64,000 nucleotides of DNA from positions 18,716 to 82,715 of the forward strand of contig JAUHXR010000002.1 in NCBI GenBank assembly GCA_030426845.1. The letters run 5' to 3'. The notes beneath the pieces were generated by a model. The model worked only from the letters and a program-made list of their open reading frames with translations. It ran no database searches and was not told where the DNA came from. Shown here piece after piece: positions 21,299 through 35,440 of this stretch. Each line of letters opens with the position of its first letter. Position 1 is the stretch's first letter. Source of the stretch: Polyangia bacterium (lineage in GTDB: Bacteria; Myxococcota_A; Polyangia; Polyangiales; Sandaracinaceae). The position numbers and the translations under genes were made by a program.

Positions 21299-23530
21299 AT
21301 GACCACCGGCAAGGGCAAAGGGAAGAAGGGGCGCGTGGGCTCGTCGCTCACCGACGCCGTCGTCGCGGCCCTGGCTCAAGTGGACGACAAGCCGGGGGCG
21401 GCCAAGGGGAGCGGCGAGCCGGCGCCGGTCAACGGGGCGCGCCACGGGTTCCGCTCGGGGCCCGGCTCGTTCGCCGATCTGAGCCGCCGCTGGGCGGGCG
21501 GCGCGCCGATGACCTCCGAGCCGCCGCGCGCGTCGGGGCCGGCCCCCGAGCCGGCGCCGGTCGAGGTCGAGGCGCGGGCCGAGTCGCTGCCCGCGCCCGA
21601 GCCGCCGATGGTGACCTCGACCGAGGCCACGATCCCCGGCATGCCGGCAGCGCTGTCGCCGGAGGGCGAGCCGCCGGCTTCCGAGGCCTCGCAGGCCGAG
21701 GCGAGCGCGGACGAGACCGCCGAGCGAGCGGCCGATGGGCCCCCGAGCGCCTCGGACGAGACGCCGGCCGCCGCCGAGCCCGCCGCCGCCGAGCCCGGCT
21801 CCGACAAGGCCGGCTCCGACCAGCCCGGCTCCGACCGGCCCGCCGCCGAGGAGTCGGCCGAGCCCCGGGCCGCGGAGGCCGGCGGCCCAGTGCTGGTCAG
21901 CTACTACGGGCGGACCGACGTCGGGCTCGTGCGCGAGCACAACGAGGACAACTTCCTCGTCGCCGATCTCGCCGAGGGCGTGCGTGACCCGGACAAGCCG
22001 TCCGACGCCACGGTGGGCCCCGCCGGGTGCGTCTTCGCGGTCTGCGACGGCATGGGCGGCGCGGCCGCCGGCGAGGTCGCCTCGCAGATGGCGGTCGACA
22101 CCGTCCACGAGGTGATGGGCGGCTCGCCGCCGGCCGAGGACCGCGACGACTTCGCGCGCCGCCTCGTCACCGCGATCGAGGAGGCCGGCCAGCGCATCTT
22201 CAGCGCGGCCAAGATGGACCGCTCGCGCCGCGGTATGGGAACGACCGCCACGGTCGCCGGGATGGTCGACAACGTCCTGTTCGTCGGGCAGGTCGGCGAC
22301 TCGCGGGCCTACGTGCTCCGCGGCGACCAGTTCGCGCAGGTCACGAAGGACCAGTCCCTCGTCAACCAGCTCATCGAGGCGGGGCAGCTCACCGAGGAGG
22401 AGGCGGAGGCGTTCGAGCACTCCAACATCATCCTCCAGGCGCTCGGCACCACCGAGGAGGTCACCGTCGACCTCACGTTCCTCGAGCTGCGGGAGGGCGA
22501 CCGCCTGATGCTCTGCTCGGACGGCCTCTCCGGCCTCGTGCACGGCGACATGATGCGCGAGGTCCTCCAGGAGACGGAGGACAAGGAGGCGGCCGCCGCC
22601 AAGCTCATCCAGATGGCCAACGCGGGCGGCGGCCACGACAACATCTCGGTCATCGTGGCCGACTTCCACGGCGGCGGGCTGAGCGACGACCAGAGCGCGC
22701 CCGTCCGCTACCAACAGTATCCGCTCCCGCCCTCCGACAAGCGGCGCCAGTCGCTGCCGCCGCGCGCGATCAGCATGAAGCCGGGGGCGACCAAGCCCGG
22801 CGCGGACGTGAAGCGGGACGCGACCGGTCCGTCGCACGACGTGGAGCTGCCGCCGGCGGGTGGCGGCAGCAACGCGCTGCTCTACGCGGTGATGGTGCTG
22901 CTGCTCCTCGTCGGCGCCGCCGGGGCGTGGTTCCTCTGGGGCGGCTCGGGGGCCGGCGACGAGGGCAGCGATCTGCCGCCCCCGCCCGACGCGCCGGTCG
23001 CCGATCCGACGCCGGTCGAGGAGCCGCTCCCGGAGCCGCCGCCGGCCGAGCCCGGGACGATCACGATCACCAGCGACGTGGAGGGCGGCACGCTCTTCAT
23101 CAACGGCGAGGACCGCGGCCCGCTCGAAGACGGCCAGCAGGTGACCCTCGCGCCCGGGGGCTACACCCTCGAGGTCCGGGTCGGCGAGACCGCCATCTCG
23201 CAGCAGACCGTGACCGTGACCGAGGGCGCGGCGATCGACGTGAGCCTCAGCGTCCCGGTGGGCGCGGCCGACGACCTGCCGGACACCGGAGGCGCCGGCA
23301 CCGAGGGCGACGCGCCCGACCAGGGGACCGAAGCGGCGGGGCAGCAGGGTGGCTCAGGGCAGGGCAGCTCGGAGCAGGGTAGCTCAGGGCAAGGTAGCTC
23401 AGGACAGGGTAGCTCAGGGCAGGGCGATACGGGGCGCTCGACCCGCCGCGGCTCCGGGCGCACTGGGGGCCGCAGCACGCCCGGGGGCAATACCCCCAAC
23501 AACGGACCGCTCCCGACCAACCCGTTCTGA
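21299..23530 (+). CDS. PP2C-type Ser/Thr phosphatase with membrane anchor and PEGA tail
   Basis: A 743-aa protein. Residues 1-195 are disordered, Pro/Ala/Glu-rich. The PP2C domain spans about 199-456, with metal-binding residues in CDGMGG (249-254), GDSRAY, CSDGLSG and GGHDN (444-448), so it should be active. A transmembrane helix lies at 525-547. Outside the membrane, a PEGA domain (about 587-652) and a Gly/Ser/Gln repeat tail follow. PP2C enzymes oppose Hanks-type kinases. The phosphatase domain precedes the helix, hence is cytoplasmic. It is flanked by two FHA proteins. Confidence 0.92.
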   Translation: MTTGKGKGKKGRVGSSLTDAVVAALAQVDDKPGAAKGSGEPAPVNGARHGFRSGPGSFADLSRRWAGGAPMTSEPPRASGPAPEPAPVEVEARAESLPAPEPPMVTSTEATIPGMPAALSPEGEPPASEASQAEASADETAERAADGPPSASDETPAAAEPAAAEPGSDKAGSDQPGSDRPAAEESAEPRAAEAGGPVLVSYYGRTDVGLVREHNEDNFLVADLAEGVRDPDKPSDATVGPAGCVFAVCDGMGGAAAGEVASQMAVDTVHEVMGGSPPAEDRDDFARRLVTAIEEAGQRIFSAAKMDRSRRGMGTTATVAGMVDNVLFVGQVGDSRAYVLRGDQFAQVTKDQSLVNQLIEAGQLTEEEAEAFEHSNIILQALGTTEEVTVDLTFLELREGDRLMLCSDGLSGLVHGDMMREVLQETEDKEAAAAKLIQMANAGGGHDNISVIVADFHGGGLSDDQSAPVRYQQYPLPPSDKRRQSLPPRAISMKPGATKPGADVKRDATGPSHDVELPPAGGGSNALLYAVMVLLLLVGAAGAWFLWGGSGAGDEGSDLPPPPDAPVADPTPVEEPLPEPPPAEPGTITITSDVEGGTLFINGEDRGPLEDGQQVTLAPGGYTLEVRVGETAISQQTVTVTEGAAIDVSLSVPVGAADDLPDTGGAGTEGDAPDQGTEAAGQQGGSGQGSSEQGSSGQGSSGQGSSGQGDTGRSTRRGSGRTGGRSTPGGNTPNNGPLPTNPF
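23348..23422. repeat. 15-bp tandem repeat (five copies)
   Basis: Five copies of a unit like GGTAGCTCAGGGCAG encode Gly-Ser-Ser-(Gly/Glu)-Gln in the phosphatase tail. Copies differ by a few bases, so they are not all recent. Confidence 0.85.
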
Positions 23531-23597: not shown

Positions 23598-25262
23598 ATG
23601 ATTCGCCTCCACCAGACCTTCGGGGCCCACGCTGGGAGAGTCCTCGAGCTCGACCGCGACGTCGTCCGTCTCGGCCGGCTGCCCGACAACGAGGTGTGCT
23701 TCGATGCGCACGCCGATCTCGACGCGTCGGGGCGGCACGCGGAGATCCGCCGCGAGGGCGGGCAGTGGGTGCTCGTCGACGTCGGCAGCCGCAACGGGAC
23801 GCTCGTGGGTGGCCGCCGGGTCACGCGGCACGCGCTCGTCTCGGGTGACGAGATCGAGTTCGGGGTCGGGGGGCCGCGGATCCGCGTCGAGCTGCTCGGC
23901 GCGGTCGGCAGCAAGCACACCGCCCAGGCCACGCCGCTGTCGGCGCCTGGCCACGCGACGGGGGCGGCCACGCCGATGCCCCTCAGCCATCCGCCGGTCG
24001 GGCCGCCCAGCGAGCTGCCGCCGTCGGCCGGCCTCGGGCCGCCGGGCGCGGGCGTCTCCCTCCCGATCGGCACGCCCTCGCCGTTTCCCGGGCAGCCCCT
24101 CGCCGGCACCCCGCCGCCGTCCTCCCACGGGCCCTCGCAGATCCCCGCGTCGGCCCCCGGCCTCTCGGCCGCGCCGGGGGGCGAGCCGCGGCGCTACGGG
24201 CAGCGGACGGTCGGGATGATGATCCAGGCCGCGCTCGCGCAGGCCGAGCAGCAGCAGCAGCGAGGCGGCAACCGCTCGACCGCGTTCCTGCGCGCGGTGG
24301 CCACCGAGGCCGCCCAGTCGAGCTCGCGCGGCGTGAAGGTCGCGCTCTTTCTGCTCACCTTCCTCCTGCTGCTGACGCTCGGCGCGGTCATCGCGCTCTT
24401 CTTCTACGCGCGCTGGCAGGAGCAGGAGCTGCGCGACGAGAACGTCGAGCTGCAGCGCCAGCTCGCCGACCTCGGCGCGGGCGAGTCGGCCGAGCGCGAT
24501 CGCCTGGCGCAGCGGATCCAGGAGCTGAACGAGCAGCTCAGCGACCAGAACGAGCAGCGCGGCTCGCGCATCGCCGAGGAGAACGACGGCACGGTCTGGG
24601 CGCTGCTGCGCACGCACAACGGGCAGCGCTCGGTGCTCTGCACGGGGTTCGCGGTGCGGCGCGATCTGCTGGCGACCAACGCGCACTGCGTCGAGGCGCT
24701 CGAGCGCGCGCGCAGCCGCGGTGACGCGGTCGAGGCCGTGCACAACCACGGCGGCCAGGGAGTGCCCATCGGGCAGATGTGGCGCCACCCGCGCTACGAC
24801 GCGGACGTGCCCGCGAGCCCGGACGTCGGGCTGGTGCGCATCAGCGGTCAGACGACCCAGCAGGTCCGCCTCGCGAGCCTCCCGGAGCTGCGCCAGCTCG
24901 GCGCGGGCGACGACGTCTTCGTCCTCGGCTTCCCGAGCGCGATCGCGGAGAACGGCGCTCCGGTGGCCGGGATCGCGACCGGCGTGATCGGCCGCCTCAC
25001 CGCGTTCGACGGCACGGCGGCCGAGCCCGAGGCGCGTTTCCTCGTGTCGCACAGCGCGTTCAGCGACGACGGGACCGCAGGGAGCCCGGTCCTCGATCGC
25101 GAGGGCCGCGTGATCGCGGTGAACGCCGGCAACTTCCGGACCCGCCGGCGCGTCACCGACACCGGCACGCGGGTGACGCGGACCGTCGAGTCCGAGACCC
25201 CCTACGCGTGGGCGGTGCGCGCCGACCTCCTGATGCAGATCCTCGCCGGCCTGCCCGAGTAG
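23598..25262 (+). CDS. FHA-transmembrane-trypsin-like protease
   Basis: A 554-aa protein. An FHA domain (about 20-95; LGR, SGRHAE, SRNGT) is followed by a Pro-rich linker, a membrane helix at 247-271, a coiled coil (273-320) and a trypsin-like/HtrA domain (about 328-550). The triad is visible: His363 (TNAHCVE), Asp409 (SPDVGLV) and Ser496 (GTAGSP). So a cytoplasmic phospho-reader is joined to an extracytoplasmic protease. No PDZ domain is present. It lies 67 nt after the PP2C gene in the same orientation. Confidence 0.88.
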   Translation: MIRLHQTFGAHAGRVLELDRDVVRLGRLPDNEVCFDAHADLDASGRHAEIRREGGQWVLVDVGSRNGTLVGGRRVTRHALVSGDEIEFGVGGPRIRVELLGAVGSKHTAQATPLSAPGHATGAATPMPLSHPPVGPPSELPPSAGLGPPGAGVSLPIGTPSPFPGQPLAGTPPPSSHGPSQIPASAPGLSAAPGGEPRRYGQRTVGMMIQAALAQAEQQQQRGGNRSTAFLRAVATEAAQSSSRGVKVALFLLTFLLLLTLGAVIALFFYARWQEQELRDENVELQRQLADLGAGESAERDRLAQRIQELNEQLSDQNEQRGSRIAEENDGTVWALLRTHNGQRSVLCTGFAVRRDLLATNAHCVEALERARSRGDAVEAVHNHGGQGVPIGQMWRHPRYDADVPASPDVGLVRISGQTTQQVRLASLPELRQLGAGDDVFVLGFPSAIAENGAPVAGIATGVIGRLTAFDGTAAEPEARFLVSHSAFSDDGTAGSPVLDREGRVIAVNAGNFRTRRRVTDTGTRVTRTVESETPYAWAVRADLLMQILAGLPE

Positions 25263-25301: not shown

Positions 25302-26108
25302 TCAGAAGACCCCGCGGACGGCGCCGACGCAGCCGGTCGGTCCGCATGCGGCGGACGCCTCGACCTCGCCGCCGTCGTCGAGCACCCACCAGAGCACGCC
25401 CGCGGCGGCGGCCACGAGGGCGACGCCGAACAGGACGTCGGTGCTGACGGTCAGCGCGGTCAGCGTGTCGATGTCGCCCGCCTGCTCCGCGCTGCACGCG
25501 CCGCCCGGGCACTGCGCCTCGAGCGAGCCGTACTGCTCGTTGGCGAGGATCGCGGTCACGACGCCCGCGACCAGCGCCGCGCCCCCGACCCCGAGGAGGA
25601 TCGCCGGCCCGGCCCGCGATGGCTCCTCGCGGGCCGGCGGCGTCGGGTCGGCCGGCGGGTCGGCCTCGCGCGCCGCCTCCTCGGCCGCGCGCGCGTCGAG
25701 CTGGGCCTGGATGACCTGGATGCGCCGCTCGACGTAGTTGCGGTTCGCCGCCCGAGGCATCGCGGAGAGGAACGCGCGGTAGCCCGCGGCCGCGTCCTCG
25801 AGGCGCCCGAGTCGGTCGAGCGAGGTGGCGATGTTGTAGAGCAGCTCGGGGTGCTCGGTGAGCGCGTAGGCCTCGCGCCAGCTCGCCAGCGCCTCTTCGA
25901 AGCGGCCGTCGCTGAACGCGTCCTGCCCGGCCTGGAACAGGCTCCGCGCCTCGCGGTCCTCGCTGTCGGCCTGCTCGCGCGCTTCGCGCTGCTCGTCGGG
26001 CGGGCCCTCGCCCGAGGGCGACTGCGCGGCGGCCGTGGCCGAGAGCCCGGCCCAGGCGAGCGCGATCGTCAGGAGCCAGAGGGGGGTGCGCGGCTTGGTC
26101 ATGGTCAT
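25302..26108 (-). CDS. TPR protein with signal peptide and membrane helices
   Basis: A 268-aa protein. A signal peptide ends near SATAAAQ (residue about 29). Residues 45-140 form TPR-like helix pairs (ARSLFQAGQDAFSDGRFEEA, YNIATSLDRLGRLEDAAAGY, given as separate parts). Two hydrophobic segments follow (GPAILLGVGGAALVAGVV and VLFGVALVAAAAGVLWWV). It starts 8 nt after the RCC1 lipoprotein gene and probably belongs to the same operon. Such proteins often serve as periplasmic scaffolds in myxobacteria. ATG at 26102 is an alternative start. Confidence 0.8.
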   Translation of the reverse strand: MTMTKPRTPLWLLTIALAWAGLSATAAAQSPSGEGPPDEQREAREQADSEDREARSLFQAGQDAFSDGRFEEALASWREAYALTEHPELLYNIATSLDRLGRLEDAAAGYRAFLSAMPRAANRNYVERRIQVIQAQLDARAAEEAAREADPPADPTPPAREEPSRAGPAILLGVGGAALVAGVVTAILANEQYGSLEAQCPGGACSAEQAGDIDTLTALTVSTDVLFGVALVAAAAGVLWWVLDDGGEVEASAACGPTGCVGAVRGVF

Positions 26109-26116
26109 CGGCTCCT

Positions 26117-29100
26117 TCACGGCAGGTCCATCAGGGTCGGGGCGAAGTAGAGGGGGTGGCCGCCCCCGGTCGCGCCCAGGTCGTCGGCGCCCCAGCAGGC
26201 GACCGAGCCGTTGGTCTGGAGCGCGCACGTCGTGTGGGCGCTGGTCGAGCCCGTGGTCACGGAGGTCGCGTCCGTCACCCCGCCCACGACCTGGGGCGTC
26301 ACGATGCTCCCGTAGTCGGTGCCTCCGACCGCCGAGAAGGTGTTGGCCCCCCAGCAACGTGTGTTGCCATCATCGTAGCTCGCGCAGGAGTGCGTCTCAC
26401 CCGCCGCGACCGACGTGGCGCGGGCGCTGAAGCCGGTCGTCGACACGACCACCGGGGTCGTGGCGTTGACCCCCGTGCTGCCGTCACCGAGCTGCCCCCC
26501 CCCGCCCGAGCCCCAGCAGGCGACGGCGCCGCCGGCCCGGAGCGCGCAGGCGTGCCGGAAGCCCACCGCGAGCGCAGTCACTCCGGTGAGCCCGGTGACC
26601 GGCGCGGGGCTGGTGTGCGGGGTGGTCGTCCCGTCGCCGAGCTGGCCGGTCGTGTTGGCCCCCCAGCAGACCACCGTGCCGCCCGCGCGGAGCGCGCAGG
26701 TGAAGTCGCGGCCCACGCCGAGCTGGGTGGCGTCGGTGATCCCCGAGACGAGCCCCGGGGCGCCGTCGGCGCCGCCGGTGTCCCGGCCGAGCTGACCGCT
26801 GTCGTTGGCGCCCCAGCAGTAGACCGAGCCCTGGCCGCTTCCCGCCGCCGACTCCTGGATGGCGCAGGTGTGGTTGTCGTCGATGGCGACCGCGATCTCC
26901 TCGCCGCCCGGGATGTCGACGAGCGTCGGCTCCGTCGTGTTCGCGGTCGGTCCGCCGGTCTGCCCGCGGTTGTTCTGGCCCCAACAGAGCACCTGGCGGC
27001 CGTCCGGGGGCCCCGCGTCGACGATCACGCAGGTGCCGTCGCGCCCCGCGCTGACGTGCTGCACGCCGAGGAGGCCGCTGACCGCCGAGGCGTAGCTCTC
27101 GGCGCTGGGCTGGCCGGCCTTGTTCCACTCGGAGCTCCCCCAGCAGTAGAGCGCGCCGAGCCGGATCCCGCAGCCGTGGTTGAACCCGAAGCTCACCTCG
27201 GTGAAGTCCGTCGGGGCGACCCCGGCCTGGTCGACCACCGTCACCGCGCTCTCCGCGTAGAGCGTGGGCCGGAGGATCTGGCCCTCGCCGCTCCGACCCC
27301 AGCAGTAGACGCGGCCGTCCTGGATGCCGCACGCGTGCCCGAGGCCCGAGTGGACCGTGCGCATCGCGTCGAGCCCAGGCACGCGGATCGGCGGGTCGCC
27401 GTTCTGCGTGAGCGGCGCGCGCAGGCCATCGCCGAACTGCCCGTTTCGGTTGTTGCCCGCGCACCGGACGCCGTCGCTCATGCGCCAGCAGAGGGCGTAG
27501 TTCACCATCCACGCCTCGAGCACCCCGCTCGGCTCGCGGGTGACCGGGACCGTCTCGTAGTCGACGGGGACCCGCGTCCCGAGCGCGCCGGCCGTGTTGT
27601 AGCCCCAGCAGCGGAGGCTGCCGCCCGTGCCGATGGTGCAGAAGGTCCGGTACTCGCGGAGGATCTCTCTCGCGTCGCTGACGCCCATCACGGTGACGGG
27701 GACGTGGCTCGACGTGGTGGTCCCGTCGCCCAGCGTGCCGTACTGGTTGTCGCCCCAGCACCGGACCGTCCCGTCGGTCAGGACCGCGCAGCTCGCCGCG
27801 TTGGAGGTCGCCACGTCGGTCGCGCTCATCGGCAGCGGCACGCGCGTAGCCTGGTTGGTGGTCGCCTCGCTCGTCGGGCGCCCCGTCTGACCGCGCGTGT
27901 TCTGGCCCCAGCACCAGACCCCGCCCAGGTCGTCCAGCGCGCAGGTGTGGGCGTCGCTGGTCGCGACGGCCACGAAGCTCCGGGCCGCGAAGGCCGCGTC
28001 GGCGCTCGTCACGAGCTGCGGCTCCGCTTCGCGAAGGGCGGGCGGCGGGTCGATGCCGAGCTGTCCCTGCGGCCCGAAGCCCCAGCAGCGGAGGCGGCCG
28101 TCGAGGCCGATGACGCAGGTCTGGTTGGCGCCCGCGCTGACCGCGCGGACGAGCAGCGGCGGCGCGCCGGGCGAGAGCGACTCGCGGACCATGACCGCCT
28201 CCTCCGGGCTGCGGGGCAGCAGGTCGGGCGCGGACTGGGCGTGCCGGTTCCGTCCCCAGCACCACAGCTGCCCGCTCTGGCGGATGACGCAGGTGTGCCC
28301 GATCGAGCCGGCGACGTCGATCGCCGGGTCGCACACCCCCGCGACGCAGGCGGTGCCCGGGCTGCACACGACGCCGCACCCGCCGCAGTGGAAGGGATCG
28401 TCGAGGAGGCTCGCCTCGCAGCCGTTGCGCCCGTCGCCGTCGCAGTCGCCGAAGCCCGCGGCGCACTCCTGGACCTCGCACGCGGAGCTCTCGCAGGTCG
28501 TCGAGACGACCTGGGCCGTGCCGCAGGCCATGTCGCACCCGCCGCAGTGGCTCACGCTGCTCGTGGTGTCGACGCAGCTCCCGCCGCACACCGTGCCCGC
28601 GCAGGTCGCCGAGCACACCGGCGACGCGCCCGTGCTGTCGCAGAGCTCGCCGCTCGCGCAGGCGACGTCGCAGGCGCCGCAGCTCGTGGCCGAGGCGAGA
28701 TCCGCCTCGCAGCCGTTGGTCGCGTCGGAGTCGCAGTCCTCGAAGCCGGCCATGCACCCGCTGAGCGTGCAGGCGCCCGCCTCGCACGCGCCGACCGCGT
28801 TGGCGAGGTTGCAGGCCATCCCGCATCCCCCGCAGTGCGTGAGGCTGGTGTCGGTCTCCGCCTCGCAGCCGTCGGCCGCGGCGCCGTTGCAGTCCGCGTA
28901 TCCGTCCTCGCAGCCCGCCGGCGCGCAGCGGCCCGCGACGCACTCGGCCAGCGCGTGCGGACCCACCGTGCAGTCGGCGGCGGTCACGCACGGCTCGCCT
29001 CCGGGCGGGCCCGCGTCGATGACCGTGAAGTCGCCGGAGCTGCGCACCAGGCTGCACCCCGAGAGGAGCAGCCCGGCGCCGAGGGAGAGCGCGAGGAGCG

Positions 29101-29137
29101 CGCGCCGCGGGTTCGGAGGGGCGAGAGTGACGTCCAT
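26117..29137 (-). CDS. Cys-rich and RCC1-repeat lipoprotein
   Basis: A 1006-aa secreted lipoprotein (lipobox LLSGC at about residue 28). Residues 45-270 are Cys-rich repeats of the type HCGGC-x2-AC with CDGDGRNGCEA, related to MopE-like motifs found in Myxococcota. Residues 275-1006 contain many RCC1-type repeats with the pattern HTCAL...G.V.CWG.N..GQLG, forming beta-propellers. The cytoplasmic RCC1 role in eukaryotes does not apply; here the propellers probably bind partners outside the cell. It follows the subtilisin gene after 51 nt. Confidence 0.9.
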   Translation of the reverse strand: MDVTLAPPNPRRALLALSLGAGLLLSGCSLVRSSGDFTVIDAGPPGGEPCVTAADCTVGPHALAECVAGRCAPAGCEDGYADCNGAAADGCEAETDTSLTHCGGCGMACNLANAVGACEAGACTLSGCMAGFEDCDSDATNGCEADLASATSCGACDVACASGELCDSTGASPVCSATCAGTVCGGSCVDTTSSVSHCGGCDMACGTAQVVSTTCESSACEVQECAAGFGDCDGDGRNGCEASLLDDPFHCGGCGVVCSPGTACVAGVCDPAIDVAGSIGHTCVIRQSGQLWCWGRNRHAQSAPDLLPRSPEEAVMVRESLSPGAPPLLVRAVSAGANQTCVIGLDGRLRCWGFGPQGQLGIDPPPALREAEPQLVTSADAAFAARSFVAVATSDAHTCALDDLGGVWCWGQNTRGQTGRPTSEATTNQATRVPLPMSATDVATSNAASCAVLTDGTVRCWGDNQYGTLGDGTTTSSHVPVTVMGVSDAREILREYRTFCTIGTGGSLRCWGYNTAGALGTRVPVDYETVPVTREPSGVLEAWMVNYALCWRMSDGVRCAGNNRNGQFGDGLRAPLTQNGDPPIRVPGLDAMRTVHSGLGHACGIQDGRVYCWGRSGEGQILRPTLYAESAVTVVDQAGVAPTDFTEVSFGFNHGCGIRLGALYCWGSSEWNKAGQPSAESYASAVSGLLGVQHVSAGRDGTCVIVDAGPPDGRQVLCWGQNNRGQTGGPTANTTEPTLVDIPGGEEIAVAIDDNHTCAIQESAAGSGQGSVYCWGANDSGQLGRDTGGADGAPGLVSGITDATQLGVGRDFTCALRAGGTVVCWGANTTGQLGDGTTTPHTSPAPVTGLTGVTALAVGFRHACALRAGGAVACWGSGGGGQLGDGSTGVNATTPVVVSTTGFSARATSVAAGETHSCASYDDGNTRCWGANTFSAVGGTDYGSIVTPQVVGGVTDATSVTTGSTSAHTTCALQTNGSVACWGADDLGATGGGHPLYFAPTLMDLP

Positions 29138-29188
29138 ACCGGGGTCTTCGCCGCGACCCCGGCGGATCTGACGGCCCCGGTCCGCGGC

Positions 29189-31297
29189 CTACCAGATCTC
29201 GATCTCCTCGATCGTCGACCACTTGTCGCCGCCGTCCGTGACGATGAAGCTGAGCGCGGCCGCCTCCGCGCCGCTGTCGATCGGGAGGTCCTCGATCACG
29301 TACTTGGTGCCGTAGGCGAGGGGGCTCGGGAGGACGCTCGACAGGTCCACCACGTCTCCCGAGCTCGTGTAGAGGACGGGCGGGTAGAACGTGCCGTGGG
29401 CCGACTCCTCGTTGGTGAAGATGACCGCGGTCAGCGAGCTCGGATCGAGCGCGCAGACCCGGCAGCCGCCGGTCGGCGGCTGAGGCCCGAGGGGGCCGGC
29501 CTCGCGCGAGGGGTACTGCTCGAAGGGGCACAGATCGGGGTGAGGGCCGATCGCGGACATGTCGCTCATGATCGTCCCTGCGCCGCAGGTCGGTGAGCTG
29601 ACGGCGTCGACGAGGGAGGCCGCCGAGAAGTTGGGGCCGCCGGGCGGCAGCGACGCGATCGCCCCGGGAGAGAGCACGACCGGCGAGCCGGCGCCGGGGC
29701 CGATGCGGGTCGCGGTGCAGGTCACGCCGCAGATCGTCGCGCCGGGGTCGCGCGTGCACACCTCGGCCGCGGCCTCGAGGAGCGCACCGCACATCGAGAT
29801 CCGCGCGACCGTGCCGCAGCTCCCGCCGGGGGCGCAGAAGTCCGCCGCGCCGAGGTGGCTCAGGGGGACGGCCGAGGCGTAGAGGTGATCGGCGACGTCC
29901 GACGCGGTCCAGTGCGGCGTGTAGGACCAGAGGATCGCGGCGGCGGCGGCGGCGGCGACCGGGCCGAATGAGGTGCCCGTCATCAGCGGGGTCGGGTTGC
30001 CGGGGCCGGCGCCGTCGAGGTCGAACGCGACGCTGCGCCCCGGCGCCACGAGCTCGGGCATCCCGCCGACGCGGCCGAGCTGGAGCGGCTGGTCGGACGG
30101 GTCGACCGCGCCCACCGCGTAGAGCAGCGGCTCGCCGCACGACGCGACGTCGCTCGCCCAGGCCCCGGGCAGCATCGGCCCTGCGCTCGCGCCGGGGCCG
30201 CCGGTCGCGTTGCCGGCCGACGCGAACACGAGCGCCTGGTAGCCGCAGACCGCGGCGTCGAGCGCCCGCCGCAGCGCGTCGGCCGAGGGTCGCGGGCTGC
30301 CGTCGGAGAGCACCTCGTAGCCAGGCTCGGCGCCGATCGACAGCGCCAGGATCCGCGGGGCTCCGCCGCGGGCGGACGAACCCACGGTCACCGCCTCCTC
30401 GATCGCGGCCGCGACCTGCGAGAACGTGCCGATCACCCCCCCCTCGGCGCGCTCGTCCGAGCCGTCCGGCAGGCGCTCGAGCGCGACGTGGTTGGTGAAC
30501 TCGGTGTTGCAGACGGCGCCGCTGCCGCCCGGGCAGGCGAGGGCCTCGATGAGGTGACCCATCACCGCGCCGTGGGACGACGCGCTTCCCCGCCCGGAGG
30601 GCGCGGGCGACGTGAACCCGGTGTTAGGCGGCGCGGTGTCCAGCACCGCCACGTGCGTGGTCCGCGGGAGCGGCCCGTCCACCGCCGAGACGACGGAAGG
30701 CAAGGACGACTCGGCCTCGAGCTGGGCGAGCCAGCCCTCGTAGTATTCCTCCCAGACCGCGGCCGACGCGAGCTCCGAGTCGGATCCGCCGAGGCCGACC
30801 ATCACCGGGCAGTCCGGCTGGAGCCAGTCCATCGGGGCGCGCCCGTCGTCCGACGGCGGCAGGCCCCCGGGGCCGGGGTTGTGCGTGGTGTGCTCGTAGA
30901 CGCAGTACCGACCGGCCATTGTCTCGAAGCCGTGGGTGAACAGATCGCGCACGTCCCAGCCGCCTCCCGGCACGGGGCAATGGTTGCTGGCGAGGGCGAG
31001 CCGTCCGACGAGGACGTTGTCGAGGCACTGCTCGGTGATGCCCGGTCGCGGCTCGCTCCCGACGCAGTAGACGGTGCCCACCGGCTCGTCGACCGTGCCG
31101 TCGCAGTTGTCGTCGACGTGGTTGCAGATCTCGGGCGCGCCCGCGTGGATCGCGGGGTCCGAAGGCGCGCAGTCGCTCCCGTCCGGATCACCGTCGCCAT
31201 CGGAGTCGCCGGCGACCGCGAGCCCGGTCGATCCCACGTCGGCGACGCACCCCCCGCTCAGCAGGAACGCCAACAGCCCATAGCGAATTTGCCTCAT
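29189..31297 (-). CDS. Subtilisin-like (S8) serine protease lipoprotein
   Basis: A 702-aa protein with lipobox LLSGGC (Cys17). Residues 30-72 hold a MopE-like Asp/Cys motif (CNHVDDNCDGTVDEP). The S8 domain covers about 210-480: Asp220 in VAVLDTA, His242 in SSHG, Asn363 in SAGN and Ser443 in TGTSFG, all in order. The C-terminal 200 residues are Cys-containing and beta-rich. The ATG overlaps the stop of the CHAT gene (ATGA), so both proteases are made together. It should act at the cell surface. Confidence 0.9.
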   Translation of the reverse strand: MRQIRYGLLAFLLSGGCVADVGSTGLAVAGDSDGDGDPDGSDCAPSDPAIHAGAPEICNHVDDNCDGTVDEPVGTVYCVGSEPRPGITEQCLDNVLVGRLALASNHCPVPGGGWDVRDLFTHGFETMAGRYCVYEHTTHNPGPGGLPPSDDGRAPMDWLQPDCPVMVGLGGSDSELASAAVWEEYYEGWLAQLEAESSLPSVVSAVDGPLPRTTHVAVLDTAPPNTGFTSPAPSGRGSASSHGAVMGHLIEALACPGGSGAVCNTEFTNHVALERLPDGSDERAEGGVIGTFSQVAAAIEEAVTVGSSARGGAPRILALSIGAEPGYEVLSDGSPRPSADALRRALDAAVCGYQALVFASAGNATGGPGASAGPMLPGAWASDVASCGEPLLYAVGAVDPSDQPLQLGRVGGMPELVAPGRSVAFDLDGAGPGNPTPLMTGTSFGPVAAAAAAAILWSYTPHWTASDVADHLYASAVPLSHLGAADFCAPGGSCGTVARISMCGALLEAAAEVCTRDPGATICGVTCTATRIGPGAGSPVVLSPGAIASLPPGGPNFSAASLVDAVSSPTCGAGTIMSDMSAIGPHPDLCPFEQYPSREAGPLGPQPPTGGCRVCALDPSSLTAVIFTNEESAHGTFYPPVLYTSSGDVVDLSSVLPSPLAYGTKYVIEDLPIDSGAEAAALSFIVTDGGDKWSTIEEIEIW

Positions 31298-34059
31298 TCG
31301 AGTCCTCCGAGATCCGACGTGATGATCCGGTACGCGCTCCACTCTGAGGGGAACCGTACACGTGATTCAAGCACCGCCTGGCGCAGCGCCTGGCGGTCGA
31401 GAGCTGCCTGAGCAGCGTGGTGCGCAAGGCGGCTGGCGAGGTACGCGGCCGCCTCGTCGGACACCGGCCGCGAGGTCGCGACCACCGTGGCCGAGCCGGC
31501 GAGCAGGAACGCGGGCGCGAGGCCGAGGCCCTGGACCTCCGTCGCGTCGGCGCTCGTGGCGGCGGTGGCGCAGCCCGAGAGCACGACGAGCTGCGGCGCG
31601 CCCTCGCTCGCGAGCACGTCGGCGGGGGTCAGGCGGGTGCCGCCGGCGAGCGCGATGCCGCGCTCCCAGCCGCGCAGATCGTCGCTCACGCCGTGTCCGG
31701 CGAAGTGGAGCGCGCGGACCGCGCCGAGCTGCGAGAGCACCGCGCCGCGTCGGGCCTCCTCGCCGACGAGGCTCCGCGCCCGATCGCCCAGCGCCGCCGC
31801 GAGCGCGGCGTGCTCCTCGCGCGCGCCGGGGAGGTTCCCGGCCGGATCGGTCACGAGCAGGACCGGCCCGTCGGTGTGGGGCGCGTCGTCGGTGCGCTCG
31901 GGATCGAGGTCGACGTCGAGGTCGAGCGAGTAGAGGACCTCGCGCTGCGCCAGCAGGGGCGCACCGCGCCACGGCCGTCCGTGCAGCTCGAGCGCGGCGA
32001 GCGCGGCCGGGGCGACGATCACCACGCGGTCCGCCGCCTCGACCCAGTCGTCGAATGGGCCGAACGCCCACTCGCCCTGCGCGGCCGGCTCGGCGGGGGG
32101 GGCGTCCCGGCGCGCGGCGCGGTGCTGGCCGTCGAAGTGCGCGAGCAGCAGCCAGCCCTCGCCCTCGAGCGGCTGGGCGACGAACAGCAGGGCGCCGGGC
32201 GGCGGCGCCCGGAGCGTCGCCCGCGGCTCGGGTCCGAGCGCCGCGTAGGCCGCGTCGAGCTCACGAGCGAGGCTCTGGCTCGCGGCGCGGAGCTCCTCGT
32301 CGAACGCGCCGAGGCCCTCCTCGGGGACCTCCCAGCGGGTGGCGAGCCGCTCGTCCAGCGCGGCCCGGCCCCGCCGGTAGCGGGCGAGCGCGGCCTGCCA
32401 GGCGGCGCGGCTCGGGCCGCTGAGGGCCTCGATGCGGCGCTCGCGGGCGAGCGTACGGAGCGAGCGAGCCTGCGCGCGGCGGCTGGCGGCCATCGCCTCG
32501 TCGAGCGCGCCCGCCTCGTGCAGCGCGAGGACGAGCGCGGCCGCCGTCCGACCCCGGCGCGACGCGAGCGTGTCGCGACCCGCCCCCACCGTGACCGCGC
32601 GGACCTCGGCGTCGAGCGTCTGCTCCGCGCTCCGGAGCGCCTCGATCCGCGCCTCGGCGGAGTCCGCCGCCTCGGCCATCCACCAGCTCGCCCGCCACGC
32701 GGCCTCGAGGTGGCCGGCGTCCTGCGCGCGGGTCCGCAGATCCGCGTAGATGCCGTGCGCGCGCGCGCGCTCGCCGCGCGCCAGGGCGACCCGACCCTCG
32801 ACGTCGATCAGCCAGCTCTCGAGGTCGAAGGCCGGCTCCCGCTGCAGCGCGCGCGCCCGCCGGAGCAGCCGCTCCGCCGCGTCGGGCTCGCCGCGGGCCG
32901 CCTCGACCAGCGCCCAGGTGCCGAGCCCGTCCGCCGCGATCTGATCGTTCCGGCAGGGGCCGGTGAAGCCCTCCACCGCTCGCTCCGCCGCCTCGGCCGC
33001 GCGCGTGAGCCGCCGCGGATCCACCCCGCGCGCGACCGGACCGTCCGCGAGCAGGAAGTCGAACCACGCCCGGGTGGCGAGCATGTGCGCGCGGACGCAC
33101 GCGTCGGCGGCGCTCCCCGCGAGCCCCGCCCCGGCCCCGAGGCCCGCCTCGAGCTCGGCCTCGAGCTCGGTGAGCAGGCGGTCCGCCTCGGAGACGCGGC
33201 CGAGCTGGACCAGCACGGGCGTGCGCATCTGGTTGGCCATCCAGCGGGCGTCGTCCATCCCGAGCCGTCGCGCCCAGCGCTCCGCCTCCTCGAAGCGCTC
33301 GAGCGCCCGCGCCGGCTCCGCCCGATCGAGCGCGAGCAGGCCCTCCTCGTAGGCCACGTCCGAGCGATGCTCCGCCACGACGTCGACCAGCGGGCCGATG
33401 CGCGCGAGGGCCGCCTCGGCCCCGTCGAGGTCATCCGAGAGCTTGTGCTCGGTGAACGCCAGGGCGATCCCGTCGCGGACGGCGCGCGAGAGCGATCCGC
33501 GGCCCTCGTGGAGCGTGATCGCCTCCTCGAACGCGGGGATCGCCGCCGCGTCGTCGCCGGTGGAGAGCGCGATGCGGGCCGCCTGGGACAGCGCCTGGGC
33601 GCGCGTGGTCGGGTCGGCCAGGAGCGGGGCCAGCCGCGCGCGGGCGCCGTCCAGATCGCCGGCCGCGCGGAGCTCGGCCACCTCGTCGAACCGGGGCGCG
33701 TCCGGCTCGCGGGTGAGCGCCAGGCTCCACCCGCGTCGCTCCTGGCCCGCCGACGTCACGCGGACGGCGAGGCGCCGCGCGTCGCTCGAAGGTCGCACGG
33801 TGAGCTGACGGCCGCCGGCCACCGGGTTCGACTCCACGCCCACCGGCTCGCCGTCCACCCGGACCTCGACCGCGCCGTCCCCCGGCGCCGCCCACCACAC
33901 CACGAGCCGCGGCTCCTCGCCCAGCGCGCAGACCGGCCCCTCGTGCACCGCGGCGCACCCGGCGAACACGACGCCCTCGAGTGTTGTGTCGTAGGCGAGC
34001 TCGGTCGGGCGGAGGAACAGGGCGGTGGCCGCGACCGCGAGGGCGACGCGGTCCTTCAC
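31294..34059 (-). CDS. CHAT caspase-like protease with helical repeats
   Basis: A 921-aa protein. Residues 1-20 form a hydrophobic stretch that may be a signal or anchor. A beta domain (about 40-115) is followed by a long TPR-like helical region (about 120-560). The CHAT domain (about 620-921) shows the dyad: His789 in HFAGHG and Cys830 in LVVLSGC, then FLLAGSATVVAT. CHAT proteases cleave specific partners after activation through attached repeats. GTG start overlaps the upstream membrane gene by 4 nt (GTGA), and the stop overlaps the subtilisin gene (ATGA). Confidence 0.92.
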   Translation of the reverse strand: MKDRVALAVAATALFLRPTELAYDTTLEGVVFAGCAAVHEGPVCALGEEPRLVVWWAAPGDGAVEVRVDGEPVGVESNPVAGGRQLTVRPSSDARRLAVRVTSAGQERRGWSLALTREPDAPRFDEVAELRAAGDLDGARARLAPLLADPTTRAQALSQAARIALSTGDDAAAIPAFEEAITLHEGRGSLSRAVRDGIALAFTEHKLSDDLDGAEAALARIGPLVDVVAEHRSDVAYEEGLLALDRAEPARALERFEEAERWARRLGMDDARWMANQMRTPVLVQLGRVSEADRLLTELEAELEAGLGAGAGLAGSAADACVRAHMLATRAWFDFLLADGPVARGVDPRRLTRAAEAAERAVEGFTGPCRNDQIAADGLGTWALVEAARGEPDAAERLLRRARALQREPAFDLESWLIDVEGRVALARGERARAHGIYADLRTRAQDAGHLEAAWRASWWMAEAADSAEARIEALRSAEQTLDAEVRAVTVGAGRDTLASRRGRTAAALVLALHEAGALDEAMAASRRAQARSLRTLARERRIEALSGPSRAAWQAALARYRRGRAALDERLATRWEVPEEGLGAFDEELRAASQSLARELDAAYAALGPEPRATLRAPPPGALLFVAQPLEGEGWLLLAHFDGQHRAARRDAPPAEPAAQGEWAFGPFDDWVEAADRVVIVAPAALAALELHGRPWRGAPLLAQREVLYSLDLDVDLDPERTDDAPHTDGPVLLVTDPAGNLPGAREEHAALAAALGDRARSLVGEEARRGAVLSQLGAVRALHFAGHGVSDDLRGWERGIALAGGTRLTPADVLASEGAPQLVVLSGCATAATSADATEVQGLGLAPAFLLAGSATVVATSRPVSDEAAAYLASRLAHHAAQAALDRQALRQAVLESRVRFPSEWSAYRIITSDLGGLE

Positions 34060-34820
34060 GGATCGCGCTCCAGGCGGAGCTCCGCGCGGAAGGTGCGGGC
34101 GTCGTCGTCGTCGCCGAGCTCGATCTCGACCGCGACCGGGCCGACGCGTTCGCCAAAGAGCGCGCGCGCGGTCCCCGCGATGCGGATCGCGCCGCGCGCT
34201 GAGCGCTCGACGGGCGGGTCCCAGGGCGCCCGGGCGCCGTCCGCGACGAGGAAGCAGCGGACCTCCGGCGGCGCGCGCTCCGTCTCGGGCCGCAGCACGA
34301 TCTCGACGCGCGAGCCGGGGGACAGGGTCGCCTCGGGCGCGGCCGCGCCCTCCGAGCGGAGCTCGCGATCGCCCGCGGTCAGCTGCAGCGTGTAGCCGTC
34401 GAGCGCCCCCGCGTCGGTCTGCGGGCGCAGCACCAGGAAGAGCACCGCGGCCGCCGCGGCGAGCACGACCCCCCCGGCGATCCAGGCGCGCCGGCCTCGG
34501 CCGATCGGCACGACCTCCGCGGGCGGGCGCGCGGGCGGCGCCTCGTCCGTCGCGTCCGTCGCGCTCATCGTCTCCGCGACCTTGTCGGAGGTCGTCCCCG
34601 ACAGCGCGCCCGCGGCCGCCGCGGTCAGCGCCTCGAGCGTCGCGTCGTCCATCGGTGCGAACGCCTCCCGGCGCTCGGGATCGGTGAGCGCCTCATCGTC
34701 CTCGCCCGCCGCGAGGCGCTCCCACGCCTCCCACTCCGCGCGCTGGGCCGCTTCGGCCTCCGGATCGCGCGCGCGGAGCGCCGCCGCGACCTCCTCGAGC
34801 AGCTCGTCGCCATCGCTCAT
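34056..34820 (-). CDS. Single-pass membrane protein, likely regulator of the adjacent sigma factor
   Basis: A 254-aa protein. The cytoplasmic part (1-110) is acidic and helical, one transmembrane helix lies at 112-131, and the outer part is beta-rich. It overlaps the sigma gene by 4 nt (ATGA), the usual place and shape of an anti-sigma factor, although no zinc-binding HxxxCxxC motif is present. It links the sigma gene to the protease genes. The anti-sigma role is inferred from layout. Confidence 0.7.
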   Translation of the reverse strand: MSDGDELLEEVAAALRARDPEAEAAQRAEWEAWERLAAGEDDEALTDPERREAFAPMDDATLEALTAAAAGALSGTTSDKVAETMSATDATDEAPPARPPAEVVPIGRGRRAWIAGGVVLAAAAAVLFLVLRPQTDAGALDGYTLQLTAGDRELRSEGAAAPEATLSPGSRVEIVLRPETERAPPEVRCFLVADGARAPWDPPVERSARGAIRIAGTARALFGERVGPVAVEIELGDDDDARTFRAELRLERDP

Positions 34821-35440
34821 CGAGCCGGCTCCACGCTGAGCGGCGGCCGCAGCTCCGCCGCGATCCGGTCGGCGACCTTCCGGATGCGTCGCTTGCCCTG
34901 GTAGACCGCGTCGCGGGTCATCGACAGCTCGTCGCAGATCGCCTCGACGCTCCGCTCCTCGACCCACAGCAGGGTGAAGAGCCGGAAGGCCTCCGGGGTG
35001 AGCTCCTCGCGCAGCCGCTCGATCGCGGTGGAGAGCTCCTCGCGGGCCGCCACCTCACGGTCCGGTCCGCGGGCGCTCGGCGCGCGGCGGACGAGCTCCT
35101 CGGTCTCGTAGGGCGTCTCCGTGTAGGGGCTCTGGCGGCGGCTCCGCAGCTTGGACAGGGCGCGCCGCTCCGCGACCATCGCCGCGTAGCCTTCGAGCGA
35201 GAGCCCGCCGTCCGCGCGCCAGGCCCGGAGCACCTTCGCGTCGTCGGAGAACAGCACCACGAGGACATCTTGAACCATATCCTGGAGCTCATCCCGGACC
35301 GAGCGCCCGGCGCTGCGGCGAAGGAGGACGCGCGCGACCCGCGCCTGGATCGACGGCGTGAGCCCGCGCACCAGCGCGCCCAGCGCCTCGCGATCCCCCT
35401 CCAGTGCGCGTTCGAGCTGCGAGGCGAGCGGGTTGGTCAT
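34817..35440 (-). CDS. ECF-type RNA polymerase sigma factor
   Basis: A 207-aa sigma-70 family protein. Region 2 is at about 35-105 (DMVQDVLVVLF is the core-binding helix) and region 4 at about 145-195 (LLWVEERSVEAICDELSM, VYQGKRRIRKV). Regions 1.1 and 3 are missing, as in ECF factors. The linker of about 40 residues is rather long. It is first in the minus-strand operon and is expected to drive it, and possibly other genes. Confidence 0.88.
   Translation of the reverse strand: MTNPLASQLERALEGDREALGALVRGLTPSIQARVARVLLRRSAGRSVRDELQDMVQDVLVVLFSDDAKVLRAWRADGGLSLEGYAAMVAERRALSKLRSRRQSPYTETPYETEELVRRAPSARGPDREVAAREELSTAIERLREELTPEAFRLFTLLWVEERSVEAICDELSMTRDAVYQGKRRIRKVADRIAAELRPPLSVEPAR

Follow-up and report, generated by a model that had tools for sequence, protein, structure and literature searches.

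The stretch of DNA analysed here (the window) comprises 64,000 nucleotides (nt) of contig JAUHXR010000002.1 from a Polyangia bacterium of the family Sandaracinaceae, and carries on its minus strand four consecutive genes (29189-35440) coding for a sigma factor of the extracytoplasmic function (ECF) type, a one-pass membrane protein, a tetratricopeptide repeat (TPR) protein with a CHAT cysteine protease domain, and an S8 (subtilisin-type) protease. A sequence-only reading had described these genes as joined by three successive 4-nt overlaps (ATGA, GTGA, ATGA), with all catalytic residues intact, and as closely followed by genes for an RCC1-repeat, Cys-rich protein and a second TPR protein. When the coordinates were re-read, the three overlaps were confirmed and the spacings downstream proved to be short, with 51 nt between the S8 stop codon and the start of the RCC1 gene and 8 nt between the stop of the latter and the start of the TPR gene. 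The features are collected in Table 1.

Table 1. Genes, gene junctions and key codons of the locus, in window coordinates (aa, amino acids; pLDDT, predicted local distance difference test score)
Feature	Position	Strand	Remarks
Sigma gene (ECF-type sigma factor)	34817-35440	minus	207 aa, ATG start; TIGR02937; aligned with 5 cassette sigma factors
Membrane-protein gene (one-pass, likely anti-sigma factor)	34056-34820	minus	254 aa, ATG start
TPR-CHAT cysteine protease gene	31294-34059	minus	921 aa, GTG start
S8 (subtilisin-type) protease gene, likely lipoprotein	29189-31297	minus	702 aa, ATG start
Sigma/membrane-protein gene overlap	34817-34820	minus	4 nt, ATGA
Membrane-protein/CHAT gene overlap	34056-34059	minus	4 nt, GTGA
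CHAT/S8 gene overlap	31294-31297	minus	4 nt, ATGA
Predicted membrane helix codons, residues 115-130	34431-34478	minus	Model m17a7760ce9f1, pLDDT about 45 there; hydrophobic columns 117-132
Arg155 codon, near-invariant ectodomain Arg, weak candidate cleavage site	34356-34358	minus	Alignment of homologues
CHAT catalytic His789 codon	31693-31695	minus	85 aligned family members, 82 with a residue at this position, 81 of them His
CHAT catalytic Cys830 codon	31570-31572	minus	85 aligned family members, 82 with a residue at this position, 81 of them Cys
S8 Asp220 codon	30638-30640	minus	52/52 family members
S8 His242 codon	30572-30574	minus	52/52 family members
S8 Asn363 (oxyanion Asn) codon	30209-30211	minus	51/52 family members
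S8 Ser443 codon	29969-29971	minus	52/52 family members
RCC1-repeat Cys-rich protein gene	26117-29137	minus	Judged outside core cassette
TPR protein gene, 268 aa	25302-26108	minus	Judged outside core cassette

The sigma factor passes the NCBIfam model TIGR02937 (sigma70-ECF) with 46.5 bits against a cut-off of 42.9 and stays below the Pfam cut-offs for region 2 (16.9 versus 24 bits) and region 4 (16.2 versus 25.7 bits), so that by domain matches its assignment as a putative ECF factor is adequate. The two proteases are clearer cases: the CHAT domain (PF12770) scores 89.3 bits against a cut-off of 24 and the S8 domain (PF00082) 36.3 bits against 21.8, and all catalytic residues are present in both, namely His789 and Cys830 in the former and Asp220, His242, Asn363 and Ser443 in the latter.

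A profile made from ten CHAT proteins, with two candidates scored per genome, matched 92 of 377 genomes of the phylum at E<=1e-15. Regions were retrieved at 60 of the stronger matches, leaving out the weaker ones, which were mostly the CHAT domain alone; with 12 earlier stretches and the window, this gave 73 loci annotated with local profiles. At the 69 CHAT loci (E<1e-50), partners within 8 kb were a sigma gene in 47 cases, a membrane-protein gene in 48, an S8 gene in 37 and all three in 22 (fused loci L085 and L089 are excluded from the membrane-protein counts; L021 and L022 were originally found via S8 and are also matched by CHAT). Where at least 4 kb had been retrieved on both sides (n=48), the figures were 39, 39, 28 and 20, respectively. 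At E<=0.001 and with seven candidates scored per genome, the membrane-protein profile had matches, often weak ones, in 61 of the 377 genomes, and 40 more stretches added after this search brought the collection to 113 loci. It contains 90 membrane-protein matches (E<1e-8), a sample retrieved via CHAT or the membrane protein, of which 67 have a CHAT gene within 8 kb and 76 a sigma gene within 3 kb; these counts are lower bounds, two profile matches (L190, L192) having been missed by the annotation based on open reading frames (ORFs). Finally, the S8 profile found 26 places in 9 of 188 genomes, 24 of them at loci with CHAT or a sigma/membrane-protein pair. Three places lay outside the loci already retrieved: one is a full cassette (L210), one has a sigma-like match only (L209) and one, at a contig end, has no partner (L208). 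All of these are plain locus counts, in which related loci are not independent, and the samples lean to linked forms since linked genes had been used to make the search profiles.

Plain counts were therefore complemented by a control for co-inheritance, in which the pairwise distances between loci were correlated for each pair of families and compared with those obtained after members had been exchanged at random between paralogous loci within each genome (10 to 16 multi-cassette genomes). The correlations (0.65-0.77) of all six pairs of families exceeded the shuffled means (0.35-0.54) and were reached by 0 of 500 shuffles, and therefore the four genes travel as a set. The highest correlation was that of membrane protein and CHAT (r 0.77); that of membrane protein and sigma factor was 0.72. 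The sigma factor, the membrane protein, the CHAT protease and the S8 protease are thus a real co-inherited unit, which occurs in several arrangements. That they are chance neighbours in a gene-dense genome, as the 22 gene-order patterns seen among the 69 CHAT loci (partial sets and contig-cut loci included) might suggest, is contradicted by the repeated linkage and by the within-genome co-inheritance, and is very improbable.

The order sigma-membrane protein-CHAT-S8, proposed as a search pattern by the sequence-only reading, proved not to be fixed: the four genes recur together, but the order of the window is kept in only 11 of the 22 loci that carry all three partners. Two further four-family clusters are present in the source genome, one in the same order (L019) and one in the order CHAT, membrane protein, S8, sigma (L020). 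Up to seven CHAT copies were found in one genome (G147); copy numbers are lower bounds, as few candidates were scored per genome, and many genomes are fragmented. The 4-nt overlap recurs at other loci. Among same-strand adjacent pairs at the retrieved loci, a start codon at -4 is frequently available between sigma and membrane-protein genes (39/66) and between membrane-protein and CHAT genes (20/29), but rarely between CHAT and S8 genes (2/22); gene starts at loci other than the window are approximate. Tandem duplications were also seen, with two family sigma genes ahead of a single membrane-protein gene at L201 (G184:C226) and two S8 family genes behind one CHAT gene at L110 (G184:C396).

The six-gene unit of the sequence-only reading did not hold, as only the first four genes recur. 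The RCC1 gene (RCC1-like WD40_RLD, 334 bits versus a cut-off of 150 in Pfam; its Cys-rich part matches NF041328 below the cut-off, 65.6 versus 100) has relatives at 2 of 112 other loci (L035, L169), and the TPR gene (TPR_2, 31.7 bits versus 27 in Pfam) at 0 of 112 other annotated loci. Both genes look like passengers because of this near-absence and absence, respectively, and the six-gene operon was rejected. Beyond them, two genes on the opposite strand converge on the 3' end of the operon: a PP2C phosphatase gene (21299-23530, plus strand; PF13672, 56.4 bits) and, adjoining it, a gene for an FHA/trypsin protein (23598-25262, plus strand; PF00498, 60 bits; PF13365, 58.6 bits), another signalling pair with a protease.

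The membrane protein is predicted to consist of N-terminal helices, a membrane helix at about residues 115-130 and a beta-sandwich ectodomain (residues 139-254), as judged from the alignment and the predicted model (mean pLDDT 73.6). In the alignment of its 90 homologues, an Arg-rich stretch immediately precedes the hydrophobic columns 117-132, which, like the model, would place the N-terminal helices inside and the ectodomain outside. A structure search with the model matched the ectodomain to immunoglobulin-like folds, the VIA rows for this protein covering the ectodomain only. At the N-terminus, 10 of the 90 homologues have a CxxC motif at aligned columns, and 7 of these also an aligned His. 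When 8 CxxC homologues were scanned with zf-HC2, two (L177, L193) scored above the cut-off of 22.2 (27.6 and 23.6), three scored below it and in three the match was absent. Because two homologues pass this Pfam cut-off, an anti-sigma role is probable for the membrane protein, one that the sequence-only reading had not assigned to it. One homologue (P0004) comes from a record named Acidobacteriota bacterium, a metagenome-assembled genome; the family may extend beyond Myxococcota.

The CHAT protein was modelled with high scores (pLDDT 85.6; predicted template modelling score 0.83) as an N-terminal hydrophobic segment, a beta domain (residues 31-117), a TPR solenoid and the CHAT domain (residues 623-914). 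At L085, L089 and L163, which belong to three genomes of one genus (G318, G386 and G361, respectively), the membrane protein and CHAT form a single open frame without a stop. These fusions speak for an extracytoplasmic site of action of CHAT. Of 85 CHAT ORFs, crude N-terminal rules assigned a lipobox to 40 and a signal-like stretch to another 29; at least two of the lipobox calls, those for the window CHAT and L085, are false. Export of the window CHAT is likewise a prediction from its N-terminus.

Among solved structures, DdvA of Myxococcus xanthus ranks first by E-value in Foldseek and is also the closest sequence match to the CHAT profile (E 3.8e-16). It was found with the broader profile A10; the CHAT-domain profile A9 had no solved relative at E 0.001, nor did phmmer searches with the single window CHAT or with the L085 fusion find one. 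With the membrane-protein profile, no DdvA match was obtained in the Protein Data Bank (PDB) at E up to 10.

For the S8 protein, which the sequence-only reading had labelled a lipoprotein protease, the protease part was confirmed, but inspection by eye shows an imperfect lipobox (LSGGC), and the protein is best described as a likely lipoprotein. Its residues 42-71, between the signal and the protease domain, contain a MopE-like metal-binding motif (PF11617, 34.7 bits); short matches of this kind are abundant elsewhere in these genomes, and by eye the motif is absent from the other four aligned S8 proteins. At several loci, small proteins encoded after CHAT weakly match the S8 C-terminal domain (L072, L073 and L114, with E 2e-6, 5e-5 and 1.4e-4, respectively; weaker matches at L074, 3e-3 and 7e-3). 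No S8 was found at L072 and L073, and L114 does carry one; two others (L107, L038) match the N-terminal part of S8 (E 7e-6 and 3e-5). These matches are only suggestive of the S8 C-terminal domain being the constant part of the fourth gene.

The sequence-only reading had proposed to map the regulon of the sigma factor by its promoter motif. Comparison of 81 sigma upstream regions, delimited by approximate starts, yielded no motif common to the cassette loci. GGAAC was not enriched upstream of these genes (5 observed versus 14.9 in shuffles), and GTGGTA (10 versus 1.1) was left unused, its positions being scattered and derived in part from close relatives.

We propose that these genes form a four-gene cassette in which CHAT would cleave the likely anti-sigma factor on the outer side of the cytoplasmic membrane, thereby releasing the sigma factor, a reading to which we assign a probability of roughly 0.47. 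The N-terminal helices of the membrane protein would hold the sigma factor at the membrane. The TPR-CHAT protein, with its N-terminal beta domain, would detect a signal in the envelope or from outside the cell, probably in concert with the S8 lipoprotein, and CHAT would make the first cut in the ectodomain, after which a site-2 protease of the RseP type would act and free the sigma factor. RseP-like proteases score above cut-off at two places in the source genome. For the S8 protease, the most likely roles are maturation or triggering of CHAT or action on the same ectodomain; the step at which it would act is a guess. As for the cut itself, P1-Arg specificity is common in the clan of CHAT proteases, and Arg155 of the ectodomain, 20-odd residues past the membrane helix, is an Arg in 82 of the 89 homologues with a residue there, with Gly, Ser or Ala as the next residue in 86 of 88. 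The cascade from a surface signal to proteolysis suggested by the sequence-only reading fits the predicted topology; no shared promoter motif was found that would tie these genes to the sigma factor.

Several observations weigh against CHAT-mediated release of the sigma factor. Arg155 is placed by the model in a beta strand, for which reason it is kept as a weak lead only, and its conservation may be structural rather than that of a cut site. The membrane protein of the window has no match to any anti-sigma family, zf-HC2 included, and by eye the N-terminus of the window CHAT, like that of the three proteins most closely related to it (P0007-P0009), is hydrophobic and has no lipobox. The sigma upstream regions, as mentioned, share no promoter motif. 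S8 is missing at about half of the CHAT loci, some of which are truncated by contig ends. At 23 of the 90 membrane-protein matches there is no CHAT within 8 kb, and it is not obligatory there, because several of these loci have a sigma factor and long flanks. Sigma/membrane-protein pairs with no CHAT or S8 match within the retrieved stretch were noted at L164, L171, L173, L175, L178 and L182, and at L173 a CHAT gene lies about 15 kb off on the same contig. In one genome (G035), CHAT is on one contig (L034) and the sigma/membrane-protein pair on another (L164). Lastly, eight weaker CHAT matches (E 1e-100 to 1e-15) have flanks of 7 kb or more on either side, and four of them are partnerless (L120, L123, L125, L126). 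The other four carry at least one partner, so that as a negative control for linkage this set is not clean; at strong matches (E<1e-100) with flanks of at least 7 kb, 35 of 36 carry at least one partner, L034 being the one with none. This comparison mixes loci retrieved via CHAT and via the membrane protein, for which reason the figures from the 69 CHAT loci are preferred for linkage of CHAT to its partners. Unlinked homologues in relatives, which the sequence-only reading had named as fatal to a system, are thus mostly not what was found: linkage prevails at the CHAT loci (47, 48 and 37 of 69 for the three partners), no shuffle reached the observed co-inheritance, and G035 and the 23 membrane-protein matches above are exceptions.

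An alternative that we consider rather unlikely is that CHAT and S8 are outputs, an unrelated signal freeing the sigma factor, which would then raise the expression of proteases that are exported to act outside the cell, for example in predation or in remodelling the surface. The optional presence of S8, the exported appearance of CHAT at most of the judged loci and the membrane-protein matches that have no CHAT within 8 kb would all be expected from it. However, the three fusions put CHAT on the likely anti-sigma factor itself, and the membrane protein and CHAT are the pair with the highest distance correlation of the six.

We regard as unlikely, too, that the TPR-CHAT protein is a sensor that does not cut, in other words a split DdvA in which an outside ligand alters the shape of the protein and the change is passed via the membrane protein to free the sigma factor. 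Such a sensor would agree with the existence of fused forms and with DdvA, the nearest solved sequence relative, being an anti-sigma factor that carries a CHAT fold. The His-Cys dyad, kept in 81 of 82 members, goes beyond what a scaffold needs and speaks against such a sensor; DdvA also keeps both residues in the alignment, so that the dyad alone is not decisive between cutting and non-cutting.

Much less probable is a conflict or defence module that senses attack by a phage or rival, in which the sigma factor would be a co-regulator and the proteases would be lethal or harmful to the cell. CHAT domains do occur in defence systems (Craspase, PMC10028731; a CHAT domain in the target protein of a diversity-generating retroelement, PMC10907252), the DdvS regulon described below includes a defence island, and the CHAT part has a weak PADLOC match to BovA (26.2 bits). 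There is, however, no other PADLOC match to the four core proteins of the window, and export of the proteases sits oddly with abortive infection.

The cassette is a split, S8-bearing relative of DdvS/DdvA, the ECF sigma factor and transmembrane anti-sigma factor of M. xanthus (PDB 8rot, 8rw5). DdvA unites anti-sigma factor and CHAT in one chain, whereas the cassette has two genes for them, fused only in L085, L089 and L163. We know of no S8 partner of DdvA. DdvS becomes active once DdvA is inactivated, by a signal given as unknown in 2015 (PMC4374960), and controls an antiphage island (PMC12288465), a CBASS-CRISPR defence island. According to PMC8999054, the group ECF54 (classification of Casas-Pastor 2021) has genes for CHAT, subtilase and carboxypeptidase proteins in its genetic context and is among the groups listed without an anti-sigma factor. 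The window sigma factor, compared by gene context only, resembles it in the CHAT and subtilase genes and differs in being adjoined by the gene of a putative anti-sigma factor; the ECF54 model example is from Geodermatophilus (Actinobacteria). As regards the novelty of the gene set, the association of CHAT with a sigma factor thus has precedents in DdvS/DdvA and ECF54, while the split four-gene, S8-bearing form is new. No paper on the four-gene cassette was found in the literature covered, which was limited, with the DdvA papers and the ECF reclassification outside it.

Two further systems provide a comparison for the proposed cut. DegS of the RpoE pathway is a trypsin-like protease. In the Craspase or CASP system (the TPR-CHAT protein Csx29, Csx30 and CASP-sigma), Csx29 cuts Csx30, an inhibitor of an ECF sigma factor, which has been likened to DegS/RseA; the system is RNA-guided and tied to CRISPR Cas7-11 (PMC10028731). 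The cassette, in contrast, is predicted to act outside the cytoplasm, its likely inhibitor is bound to the membrane, and it includes an S8 protease; no Cas7-11 was found among the window proteins scanned by Pfam, a scan that covered part of the window. The proposed mechanism is closer in outline to RpoE/RseA/DegS/RseP, as described in the same paper, with a membrane anti-sigma factor, a first cut outside and then RseP, and it would differ in that the first protease is a caspase-like CHAT instead of DegS.

More broadly, it is possible, at clearly less than even odds, that myxobacteria run parallel surface-sensing channels of this type, in which an exported protease of the caspase/separase type, with a subtilisin lipoprotein as its partner, would make the first cut in a membrane anti-sigma factor. 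It would thus be the caspase-like equivalent of DegS, and DdvA would be the fused form. To our knowledge, the CHAT proteases described from bacteria mostly act inside the cell, as components of CRISPR and other defence systems. Here, a CHAT protein with an intact His-Cys dyad is predicted to be extracytoplasmic, and both fusions and co-inheritance connect it with a likely anti-sigma factor. If the proposal is true, caspase-type proteases would be transducers of envelope signals in bacteria, and a single testable question would cover both the CHAT domain of DdvA and the presence of CHAT and subtilase genes around ECF54 sigma factors, with dozens of natural variants, split and fused, with and without S8.

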